64,000 nt of DNA from Lactiplantibacillus plajomi. Lineage in GTDB: Bacteria > Bacillota > Bacilli > Lactobacillales > Lactobacillaceae. Below are positions 21,700 through 57,707 of the stretch, one piece after another. The first letter of the stretch is position 1; every line of letters begins with the position of its first letter. The notes beneath the pieces were generated by a model, which ran no database searches, was not told where the DNA came from, and worked only from the letters and a program-made list of their open reading frames with translations. The position numbers were made by a program, and so were the translations under genes. The DNA lies in contig NZ_BJDZ01000002.1 in NCBI RefSeq assembly GCF_005405405.1, positions 1-64,000 on the forward strand, given 5' to 3'.

Positions 21700-21735
21700 A
21701 AAGGGAGCCGTGACATGGTCACCGCTCCCTTTTTC
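21700..21735 (+). terminator. terminator after the MscS-family gene
   Basis: GGGAGC...GCTCCC stem extended inwards by GTGAC/GTCAC with one mismatch, followed by five T. Confidence 0.85.
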
Positions 21736-21742
21736 GCAAAAT

Positions 21743-21806
21743 AATAATTAAAACGGATCCCAAAAGTCAGCTCACTCAGCGACTCGTGGGATCCGTTTTA
21801 ATTATT
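21743..21806 (-). terminator. long-stem terminator overlapping the dapL stop codon
   Basis: Perfect 20-bp arms (21743-21762 and 21787-21806) with a 24-nt loop that can itself fold (AGTC/GACT). The distal part on the minus strand is U-rich. The arm starts inside the last codons of dapL. Confidence 0.75.
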
Positions 21807-32007: not shown

Positions 32008-32273
32008 GCATTTACATCCTTGTCTGCCTTCAAATATGACTTGACCAGTTCTTCAATAATTTCGTCACGCTGATGCTTACGAATTAAATTCCGAGCGTCG
32101 TTCAAGCGCGGGATATACGCTGGATCACCAGATAGCAAATAACCCACAATCTGGTTAATCGGGTTATAGCCCTTTTCCTGTAACGCTTCATAAACCGTCG
32201 TTAGCGTGTCGTGGACATCCTTAACGCTGTCATTGTCGAAGTCAAAATACATTGTTTTGTCTAATGAACTCAT
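32004..32273 (-). CDS. ireB: IreB family regulatory phosphoprotein
   Basis: 89 residues from the ATG at 32273 (GGAGG 8 nt upstream). Conserved UPF0297 sequence: [41 protein letters not shown] and [10 protein letters not shown]-like ending. In Enterococcus IreB is phosphorylated by the PASTA kinase IreK and lowers cephalosporin resistance. First gene of the ireB-ruvX-DUF1292 operon. Confidence 0.94.
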
Positions 32274-32308
32274 ATAAAGCACCTCCCGCTAGTTTCCGCT
32301 TCTAATCT

Positions 32309-32337
32309 ATTCTACTAAATGCCCATATGAAGTACAA
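32309..32337 (-). promoter_or_regulatory. promoter of the ireB operon
   Basis: Minus-strand -35 TTGTAC (32332-32337), 17-bp spacer, -10 TAGAAT (32309-32314). Confidence 0.65.
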
Positions 32338-32365
32338 TCAATCCATTCTGATGTAACACATTCGT

Positions 32366-32492
32366 AACAAAAAAAGCGTGTGCCAAAAGTCGGTGAGTTG
32401 GTGAGCATTAACGGCAGAGGGCGAATAATTCTGGGCTTGGATTGGTGGACCTACGGGGTTAAGCGGAGCCAACTGACTTTGGGCGCACGTTT
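32366..32492 (-). repeat. isolated long hairpin element with U-run (possible dispersed repeat or ncRNA)
   Basis: Imperfect arms 32373-32401 and 32469-32492 pair over about 20 bases (GTGCGCCCAAAGTCAGTTGG with CCAACTCACCGACTTTTGGC on the minus strand). About 67 nt lie between. The minus strand ends in GCTTTTTTT. It lies after the alaS terminator and before the ireB promoter, so it belongs to neither gene. Confidence 0.5.
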
Positions 32493-32516
32493 CGGCTATC
32501 AATATTCGGAGACACA

Positions 32517-32548
32517 CAAAAGGCTGTGACTAACGTCACAGCCTTTCC
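32517..32548 (-). terminator. terminator after alaS
   Basis: 12-bp perfect stem (32519-32530 with 32535-32546), 4-nt loop, followed on the minus strand by TTTTGTGTG; 33 nt past the stop. Confidence 0.85.
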
Positions 32549-32578
32549 AACACGACTTTACATTAACTGGTTACTAAA

Positions 32579-35221
32579 TTACTTGGCTGCCAACCAATCG
32601 TGAGCCGCTTGCATGGCATCTGGTAAACCGGCCGGGTTCTTACCACCCGCCTGGGCAAGAGTTGGCCGACCGCCACCACCGCCACCAACTTTTGGTGCGA
32701 TGGCTTTGATCAGGTCGCCCGCTTTGATGCCGGCCTTGACCTTGTCGTCACTGACCGCAACTAACAAGTTGACCTTTTCACCGATGACCGTCCCTAAGAC
32801 CAGCACGTCGGAATACTGCTTGGCTTTCCAAGTATCGCCGAGTTGCCGGAGTTGATCCATACCGGAAACGTCGATGGCTTGGGCAATCAAGGTCGTACCG
32901 TTCACGTCTTCGACTTGTTCGAAGACCGCACCAGCCTGTTGCTTGGCTAAGCGACTTTCCAACTTGGCACTCTTTTGTTGTTCGGCCTTCAAGTCCGCTT
33001 GTAACTGGCTGATCCGGTCCGGCACGTCGGTCAACTGCGGTGCCTTGACTTGGGCCGCAACCCGTTTCAAGGTCGTTTCCTCGTTAGCTAACAATTCAAA
33101 GGCTTCCTTCGAAGTAACGGCTTCGATCCGGCGAACTCCGGCACCGACGCCCCCTTCGGAAACAATCTTGAAGAGCCCGAGTTCACTACTATTTTTAACG
33201 TGGGTCCCACCGTCAAACTCGATTGAGTAATCACCAATTGAGACGACCCGCACGATCTTACCGTATTTCTGAGTAAAGACGGCAATGGCACCCATCTTAT
33301 GGCCGGTTTCCTGGTCGGTCTGGATGGCTTTGACCGGGAGTGCCGCCCAAATCTTATCGTTGACGATTTGTTCAACCTTCGCCAATTCTTCGTCGGTCAC
33401 CTGACCAAAGTGGGTAAAGTCAAACCGCAAGTAGTCAGGTTCGACCAGCGAACCGGCTTGTTGGGTATGTTCACCCAGTACGTCACGCAAAGCTTGGTCC
33501 AGCAAGTGGGTCGCCGTATGGTTCTTTTCGACCTTCGCGTGGAAGGCCAAATCGACGTTCAAGCGGTACGTTTGGTCCTTATGCATTGGTTTTAAGACCT
33601 TAACGGTGTGCAGGTGTTGCTTGTTCGGTGCGTTTTGCACGTCGGTCACCTTCGCCACCGTCTGACCATCAGCATTCAAAATCACCCCGCGGTCGGCAAC
33701 TTGGCCCCCCATTTCGGCGTAGAATGGCGTTTTACTGAAAAACATTTCGGCGGTGCCACTTTCAACCGTATCAACCAGCTGTTCATCAACAATAATGTCA
33801 GTCAACACACCGTCAACGTCGGTTAATTCGTCGTAACCCACGTACTCACTCGGTGTCTTGATATCGATTAAGAGGCTCCGTTGAACCCCCATCGACTTGG
33901 CACCGCTACGGGCTTTTCTGGCACGGTCGCGTTGTGCCTTCATTTCGGTTTCAAAGCCGGCTTCATCGACTTGCATGTCTTCGTCGCCCGCGTATTCCTT
34001 GGTTAATTCGAACGGAAAGCCGTACGTATCGTATAACTTAAAGGCGTCCTTACCAGGCAAGGTATCCTGACCAGCCTGCTTGGTTTCGGCAATCAAGTTA
34101 TTCAGTAAACTGAGGCCGTCGTTCAACGTTTCGTTGAACCGACTTTCTTCAGAAGCAACGATTTTTTCAATGTAGGCCGCGTTCTTCAAGACGTCCGGAT
34201 AGTGCGATTGCATGATTTCGCCAACGATTGGCACCAGTTTATCTAAGAAGGCTTCTTTCAAGCCTAACTTTTGACCGTGCAAAATGGCCCGCCGAATCAA
34301 ACGGCGAATGACGTAGCCGCGACCTTCGTTTGAAGGTAAGGCCCCGTCGGAAATTGCAAAGGTAATCGCACGCGCGTGGTCGGCGATTACTTTAAAGGAA
34401 ACGTCGTCCTGGTCATTGTCCCCGTAATGCTTGTCAGCGCTCAGTTCCTCAGTCTTGCGGATAATTGGCAAGAATAAGTCGGTTTCAAAGTTAGTCGGCG
34501 CGTTTTGGAAAATCGAAACGACCCGTTCAAGCCCCATCCCCGTATCAATGTTTTTCCGTGGTAACGGTTCGTAGGTGCCTTCCGGGGTGTGATTGAATTG
34601 TGAGAACACGATGTTCCAAACTTCCAAGTAGCGTTCGTTTTCGCCACCCGGGTAGTTTTCCGGATCATCGGCCGCTAAGTTATTAAAGGCCTCACCGCGA
34701 TCGTAGAAGATTTCTGAATCCGGACCGGACGGGCCTTGACCGATGTCCCAGAAGTTATCTTCGACCTTGATGATGTGGTCAGGGCTAACGCCGGTCGCTT
34801 CCCAGTACTTAACCGCGTCGGTATCCTTAGGGTAAACCGTCATGTAAAGCTTGTCCGGATCCCAACCAAACCACTTCGGTGAGGTCAATAATTCCCACGC
34901 CCACGCGATGGCTTCCTTCTTAAAGTAATCACCGACCGAGAAGTTCCCCAGCATTTCAAATAACGTATGGTGACGGGCAGTCCGACCAACGTTTTCAATA
35001 TCGTTGGTCCGGATACTCTTTTGCGAACTGGTCATCCGCGGGTTATCCGGGACGACCGACCCGTCAAAGTACTTCTTCATTGTGGCGACCCCGGAGTTGA
35101 TCCAAAGTAAGGTCGGATCATCGACCGGAACCAGTGAGGCACTCGGTACGATGGTGTGGCCCTTTTCGTGGAAAAAGTCCAGGTACATTTGCCGAATTTC
35201 ACTACTACTCAATTGTTTCAT
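32579..35221 (-). CDS. alaS: alanine--tRNA ligase
   Basis: 880 residues from the ATG at 35221 (family N terminus MKQLSSSEIRQMYLDFFHEKGHT). Class II synthetase domain with SLVPVDDPTLLWINSGVATMKKYF, MLGNFSVGDYFKKEA and the motif-3 GRGYVIRRLIRRA; editing domain with NHTATHLLDQAL; C-terminal coiled coil and glycine-rich KVGGGGGGRPTLAQAGG. The usual zinc-ligand CGGTH reads DGGTH here, so the Cys is replaced by Asp. Expression is probably set by the T-box leader upstream. Confidence 0.96.
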   Translation of the reverse strand: MKQLSSSEIRQMYLDFFHEKGHTIVPSASLVPVDDPTLLWINSGVATMKKYFDGSVVPDNPRMTSSQKSIRTNDIENVGRTARHHTLFEMLGNFSVGDYFKKEAIAWAWELLTSPKWFGWDPDKLYMTVYPKDTDAVKYWEATGVSPDHIIKVEDNFWDIGQGPSGPDSEIFYDRGEAFNNLAADDPENYPGGENERYLEVWNIVFSQFNHTPEGTYEPLPRKNIDTGMGLERVVSIFQNAPTNFETDLFLPIIRKTEELSADKHYGDNDQDDVSFKVIADHARAITFAISDGALPSNEGRGYVIRRLIRRAILHGQKLGLKEAFLDKLVPIVGEIMQSHYPDVLKNAAYIEKIVASEESRFNETLNDGLSLLNNLIAETKQAGQDTLPGKDAFKLYDTYGFPFELTKEYAGDEDMQVDEAGFETEMKAQRDRARKARSGAKSMGVQRSLLIDIKTPSEYVGYDELTDVDGVLTDIIVDEQLVDTVESGTAEMFFSKTPFYAEMGGQVADRGVILNADGQTVAKVTDVQNAPNKQHLHTVKVLKPMHKDQTYRLNVDLAFHAKVEKNHTATHLLDQALRDVLGEHTQQAGSLVEPDYLRFDFTHFGQVTDEELAKVEQIVNDKIWAALPVKAIQTDQETGHKMGAIAVFTQKYGKIVRVVSIGDYSIEFDGGTHVKNSSELGLFKIVSEGGVGAGVRRIEAVTSKEAFELLANEETTLKRVAAQVKAPQLTDVPDRISQLQADLKAEQQKSAKLESRLAKQQAGAVFEQVEDVNGTTLIAQAIDVSGMDQLRQLGDTWKAKQYSDVLVLGTVIGEKVNLLVAVSDDKVKAGIKAGDLIKAIAPKVGGGGGGRPTLAQAGGKNPAGLPDAMQAAHDWLAAK

Positions 35222-57681: not shown

Positions 57682-57707
57682 AAGGCCGTGACTTTGGTCA
57701 CAGCCTT
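57682..57707 (-). terminator. terminator after pgsA
   Basis: AAGGCTGTGAC (57697-57707) pairs with GTCACGGCCTT (57682-57692) with one G-U pair, followed on the minus strand by TTTG. The stem sequence nearly repeats that of the alaS terminator. Confidence 0.8.

Follow-up and report, generated by a model that had tools for sequence, protein, structure and literature searches.

A hairpin between alaS and ireB appears to be one copy of a dispersed repeat with a conserved RNA fold

The hairpin located between alaS and ireB at positions 32366-32492 of the window (the whole 64,000-nucleotide stretch of DNA analyzed) is, judging from the alignment of the own-genome copies, the core (about 32375-32492) of a repeat of approximately 172 bp that also includes a second hairpin at 32519-32546. 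We consider it probable (about 0.65) that this repeat is a dispersed miniature element, of the general type of MITEs, BOX and EFAR, whose RNA fold is under selection. The element looks non-coding; a 49-codon frame crosses the window copy.

The imperfect arm pair is present in the sequence as originally predicted, and the T-run assigned to the minus strand corresponds to seven A residues on the plus strand (32369-32375) immediately 5' of the 5' arm. The hairpin had been considered an orphan, which is incorrect, as it is one among about 26 copies in its own genome. A similarity search of that genome with the 127 bases produced 25 matches; 21, counting the window copy, span nearly the whole query and are 83-100% identical. 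A covariance model of the core (described below) had 26 matches there at E <= 1e-12. A dispersed element had been rightly suspected, but on other grounds, namely that the arm GACTTTTGG is common to the dapL terminator (CCAAAAGTC on the plus strand, 21760-21768). This looks like a short chance match, and the link was dropped: in the 64-kb window the model matched only the copy at 32371-32500, along with a weak reading of the opposite strand, and nothing at the dapL terminator. Two of the three outcomes set beforehand as refuting the prediction, a single copy and no covariation, were examined and neither was found. The copy number and the covariation rule out a chance hairpin peculiar to the alaS-ireB junction.

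On the plus strand the whole repeat extends over 32375-32546 and consists of the core hairpin, a linker and the 3' hairpin. In the alignment of the 21 own-genome copies, similarity begins at AGAGTG (AGCGTG in the window copy, at 32375) and continues through the 3' hairpin to 32546, with flanks that are unrelated beyond A-richness. Three copies are only partial at the 3' end: L044 has a different 3' hairpin and the matches of L045 and L046 end earlier. Within the core, based on pair counts and the covariance-model alignment, the outer stem P1 has a 5' arm at 32378-32401 that carries a 4-nt bulge (consensus GGUU; GGUG here, 32392-32395); its 3' arm, at 32469-32488, is followed by a conserved tail, GUUUC (32489-32493), and is also supported by an alignment of 61 diverse copies (A1). 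The inner hairpin, P2 (32414-32456), varies in sequence and length among copies, as determined from the alignments and pair counts. Between P1 and P2 lie an internal loop and an inner helix, formed by GAGCAUUAACG/GUUAAGCGGA, and the two segments involved are conserved. The 5' segment, UGAGCAUUAACG (32402-32413), comprises mostly invariant or nearly invariant columns of A1 and its helix covaries across genera, and the segment opposite it, GGUUAAGCGGAG (32457-32468), was placed by A1, cross-genus pairs and the model alignment. The length of the core varies by 1-3 bases among copies, by eye.

The 3' hairpin, AAAGGCTGTGAC TAAC GTCACAGCCTTT (32519-32546), had been assigned as the alaS terminator and considered separate from the core; it is instead the 3' end of the repeat, common to most own-genome copies, among which it has paired changes (judged by eye). 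Its folding energy is -19.7 kcal/mol on the plus strand and -22 on the minus strand. In the window copy it has no full T-tract, and a consensus scan of 32200-32640 found no terminator and gave this hairpin no terminator score. Two intergenic hairpins elsewhere in the window (21700-21732 and 57682-57707) have a GTGAC...GTCAC center like that of the 3' hairpin, without the core. The pattern GTGACN{3,8}GTCAC occurs eight times in the window, compared with 0.3 expected, and five of the eight occurrences are within open frames.

Tandem and/or shortened units were found at three loci (L099, L086 and L088); at L099:2028-2781, about seven shortened units are arrayed with a period of ~94/196 bp. A second subtype, GAGCAUAGCCUA/UAGCUAAGCGGA, is present in L. 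herbarum (L092, L094, L126, L164 and L171), in which UAGC/GCUA replaces the UUAAC/GUUAA helix, and in several of its loci it adjoins main-type copies.

Folded as RNA, the plus strand of 32366-32492 has an energy of -48.2 kcal/mol (z -4.5), lower than any of 200 dinucleotide-shuffled versions (-33.75 +/- 3.2), and the minus strand has an energy of -30.4 kcal/mol (z -2.7, 2/200 shuffles as low). The conservation of this fold was determined from three alignments. For A1, 184 matches were reduced to 169 full-length and 151 unique sequences and then to 71 representatives below 88% identity, of which 61 were aligned and used to build the covariance model; the ten exclusions were due to N runs, a large deletion, the second subtype or outlier status. 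A2 comprises 60 rows from 19 other genera, three of which are opposite-strand matches to copies already present, and A3 comprises 26 matches from a single genome (G212). Paired cells made up 95.5% of A1, and 24 of its 37 pairs had changed on both sides, compared with 15.8 when shuffled; its double-change cells numbered 279 compared with 86.8 when shuffled (relatedness ignored) and no more than 60 with the partner slid. In A3, also fitted to the model, 95.9% of cells were paired, 27 pairs had changed on both sides (14.4 shuffled) and there were 128 double-change cells (30.8 shuffled). The corresponding values for A2, whose rows were picked by model match and fitted to the model, which favors the structure, were 93.4%, 35 pairs (30.4 shuffled) and 634 double-change cells (162.9 shuffled). 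The inner helix is nearly invariant in A1, yet all seven of its pairs have paired changes across genera in A2.

We take the plus strand to be the RNA strand because G.U cells exceed A.C cells and because this strand folds better, although the minus strand also yields a covarying consensus fold that is nearly as good in A3. The ratio of G.U to A.C cells was 45:9 in A3 and 104:25 in A2; in A1 it was 126:40, or 121:18 once the three basal pairs of P2 were left out. The plus strand was the better folder for all 61 copies of A1 and all 26 of A3, with consensus values of -72.7 for the plus and -58.8 for the minus strand in A1 and of -100.9 and -96.3 in A3. These observations bear on whether the repeat is a neutral, parasitic palindrome with no selected RNA, in which template switching or conversion between the arms would maintain their complementarity. 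Arm correction yields paired changes without selection, so such a palindrome would explain the covariation, and the folding of the minus strand would be expected of it as well. However, correction should remove the bulge and the asymmetric internal loop, both of which are kept in most of the printed copies from other genera (L236 and L256 are exceptions), nor should it produce, on a single strand, a G.U excess over A.C of three- to fivefold. We therefore regard a neutral palindrome as improbable and prefer an RNA fold under selection.

The repeat is distributed well beyond its own species. All 21 genomes of the genus had a model match, with 608 matches in all and 1-85 per genome, L. herbarum having 85. 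In the family there were matches in 143 of 301 genomes, spanning 20 of 40 genera, and in the order in 68 of 395 genomes (24 of 80 genera), with 41 of these genomes outside the family. A class-wide draw of 250 genomes produced a single matching genome, the window's own; the 20 other genomes listed for that draw all belong to the same order as the window genome. The large draws had stricter filters and an upper limit on the matches counted in each genome, so that the per-genome numbers from them are "at least" values. Raw match counts overstate the number of copies, as with the 129 in G212, because one copy can match on both strands, and the model E-values are rough. The exact DNA pattern is more restricted: in a collection of 84,980 species it was found in 89 stretches, all titled Lactiplantibacillus, Levilactobacillus or uncultured Lactobacillus sp. 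In most of the 26 loci inspected from 15 further genera, the arms differ considerably but the conserved segments are present, while in L235, L239 and L259 these segments are only partly present. Outside the family, the four loci inspected are all from one genus, and the matches in four more families are mostly at E 1e-5 to 1e-11. Viral contigs contained no stretch with the exact DNA pattern, and a plasmid search with the window copy gave no match; the same search with a locus from another family gave 12 records and, among the matches listed, the annotated ones are at ychF.

Copies of the repeat are situated at the 3' ends of genes. Among 137 distinct copies with both neighbors, 65 are between convergent genes, 68 are between tandem genes (34:34 by orientation) and only four are between divergent genes; identical cores were counted once, and four copies inside open frames >= 90 codons were excluded. 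Neighbors in these counts are the longest open frames rather than gene-finder calls, with small genes and tRNAs outside the call set. One copy, L086, comes after a tRNA-like sequence. A same-strand gene ends within 20 nt upstream of 74 of 145 copies, compared with an opposite-strand gene for two of 145. Following the core, a terminator-like hairpin with a T-tract is present in 102 of 188 copies, versus 15 of 188 shuffled. By group, this hairpin was found in 23 of 41 copies from the own genome, modestisalitolerans and garii, 22 of 49 from Levilactobacillus, 39 of 58 from other Lactiplantibacillus (84 of 148 for these Lactiplantibacillus and Levilactobacillus copies together), 12 of 20 from G168 and 6 of 20 from G212.

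The terminator-like hairpins, the strand-specific fold and the conserved unpaired segments are also features that a small RNA gene family would have if its members were transcribed independently, with their own terminators, action in trans via the conserved loops, and copies that are gene duplicates. Moreover, 38 of the 137 copies, the window copy among them, have no same-strand gene >= 90 codons upstream and would need their own promoter. We consider such a family unlikely, however, since the upstream flanks of the own-genome copies have no sequence in common beyond a few A residues and the 74 copies noted above are within 20 nt of the end of a same-strand gene. In addition, the numbers of matches (up to 85 per genome) and the few places in common among the fetched copies look like spread. 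A strict consensus scan of 32200-32640 likewise lists no promoter around the window copy, although it also missed the ireB promoter of the original prediction. The region upstream of ireB that includes this promoter (TTGTAC/TAGAAT; 32283-32360) is closely similar in all 21 genomes of the genus.

In all 20 other genomes of the genus, the alaS-ireB junction is vacant, with one partial match at chance level in L209. The junction is 101-124 nt long in 11 of these relatives and 323-1378 nt in the other nine, and could be a hot spot for insertions. The longer junctions (L206, L207, L208, L209, L211 and L215-L218) contain sequence with no model match.

Comparison of loci between species identified, among the fetched copies (a part of the full set), eight cross-species pairs in which both flanks are related (one G016 copy is counted twice). 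Only one of these pairs involves an own-genome copy, L043, which is paired with L119 of L. herbarum. Another own-genome copy, L029, has both neighbors in common with L190 but with their order swapped, as if the element were in opposite orientations at one place.

Several copies have direct repeats that resemble target duplications, with lengths of 8-25 bp. An exact direct repeat of 20 bp, or of 25 bp if one mismatch is allowed, flanks the own-genome copy L028, and one of 19 bp flanks the L. zymae copy L129. With the left end anchored, seven of 90 copies (own, modestisalitolerans and garii, plus Levilactobacillus) score >= 8, compared with 0.4 expected, whereas the other three groups are at 0/58, 0/20 and 1/20, compared with 1.0, 0.4 and 1.4 by chance. 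An unanchored search was near chance save for three long repeats, one of which (L140) is away from the ends, and the window copy has no target duplication. Because their length is variable, the duplications suit no single transposase. By eye, the right duplication runs into another hairpin in L028, L129, L154 and L194, so that the A/T-tracts of terminators already in place may serve as the target.

The ends of the element appear to be inverted, if imperfectly. In L278, by eye, the 5' end and the reverse-complemented 3' end have 21 identical bases in common. Inverted-end scores had group means of 8.07, 8.18, 6.28, 8.75 and 7.30, compared with 5.75, 5.72, 5.59, 5.82 and 6.10 for letter-shuffled ends, although the 3' hairpin itself contains both halves of such a sequence and may confound these scores. 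The excess over letter-shuffled ends is clear for the own-genome group, Levilactobacillus and G168, less so for G212, and barely apparent for the other Lactiplantibacillus. When individual copies are compared with partners shuffled inside their group, an excess is clear only for Levilactobacillus, G168 and G212, whereas in the own, modestisalitolerans and garii group the ends match no better than shuffled partners do (8.07 vs 8.14).

A 16-base end pattern (one mismatch) was used to search the own genome, G151 and G168 for a transposase with the element's ends, and none was found, frames being listed for L316 only. The matches in the own genome (15) and G151 (10) are all within element copies, and of the 27 in G168, 18 are in copies, two are around an interrupted copy, three are at clear and four at weak matches. 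An inverted pair 1.2 kb apart in G168 (L316:1086-2267) was considered as an autonomous partner and rejected, as it is instead a copy whose P2 is interrupted by another insertion sequence, which we take to be IS3-like based on its two overlapping frames. Overall, the imperfect inverted ends and the few target duplications of 8-25 bp suggest that the element is mobile. Together with the many copies and the covarying RNA fold, they also support the original proposal of a MITE-like repeat or structural element.

For the mobile element with a selected fold that we favor, we envisage that some enzyme would move it in trans and that it would land near existing terminators, where it would do little harm. 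Its RNA would usually arise via read-through from the preceding gene and then take the conserved structure, which would stabilize, end or process the 3' end of the transcript and/or serve the element's own spread. For the window copy, which has no same-strand gene upstream, the plus-strand RNA may not be made, and any effect would come from the two hairpins and the seven-T run that follow alaS on the minus strand. A stronger version, which we consider possible but less likely than not, is that the core represents an undescribed structured RNA, present in much of the family and in other families of the order, with conserved loops that either interact with a protein or work in trans; the RNA and the mobile element would then be kept together as the RNA aids spread or has a job at 3' ends.

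Small interspersed repeats are usually regarded as species-specific debris, and here one fold has been traced through 20 of the 40 genera sampled. In food bacteria, the repeat provides hundreds of natural variants of a single RNA located at the 3' ends of genes, with which the presence of selected RNA in repeats of this kind can be tested. It could be proposed as a new Rfam entry and could be used in re-annotating 3' ends in lactobacilli. No Rfam 15 family reached its gathering threshold, with none in the window; the best sub-threshold scores for the window copy and 16 other loci were those of a microRNA model (E 2e-5) and the T-box (0.002), and the T-box score in L264, 29.5 bits, is below the gathering threshold of 93. 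Among the papers listed by a literature search, none deals with the repeat in lactobacilli, and we make no wider claim.

Several known families of small repeats have features in common with the element. REP/BIME sequences with their RAYT proteins, and the palindromes of IS200/IS605-type elements, are extragenic hairpins found at gene 3' ends; the lactobacillar repeat is longer, and some of its copies have target duplications. By its behavior the repeat is like MITEs, BOX and EFAR, and it may be regarded as a candidate member of the MITE class. MITEs such as QMITE2 are described as short, intergenic sequences with inverted ends, direct repeats and stem-loop transcripts (PMC10969869). Our repeat is similarly short (~172 bp) and has many copies per genome. 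Unlike MITEs, its inverted ends are imperfect, its duplications are few and variable in length, no parent insertion sequence was found for it in the three genomes searched, and compensatory changes preserve its fold from genus to genus.

BOX, RUP and SPRITE of S. pneumoniae are small dispersed repeats with stem-loop RNA, a modular boxB in the case of BOX, and overrepresentation between convergent genes (PMC3049150); SPRITE was named after its likeness to terminators (PMC10969869). Their preference for convergent regions resembles the placement of our repeat, and the tandem units at L099, L086 and L088 bear some likeness to BOX modules. The model had no match in the listed genomes of the family that we take for the streptococci (f4).

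The nearest counterpart in size and shape is found in Enterococcus faecalis. We assume that EFAR is the same family as Efa-1, whose mark I we take to stand for intergenic; EFAR is reported to target stem-loop sequences (Venditti et al. 2007). Efa-1 is listed at 163 bp, with 65 (18) members, the mark I and a pair of adjacent stem-loops (PMC2267715). Compared by description only, our repeat, at ~172 bp, is alike in its length, its two adjacent stem-loops and its intergenic position. It is possible, if rather doubtful, that the two are the same family in new hosts, which would be compatible with the mobile element that we favor; the length and stem-loop pair of Efa-1 (PMC2267715) and the model matches beyond the family, elsewhere in the order, are consistent with this. 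What sets the lactobacillar repeat apart in this comparison is that its fold has been traced through many genera by a covariance model.
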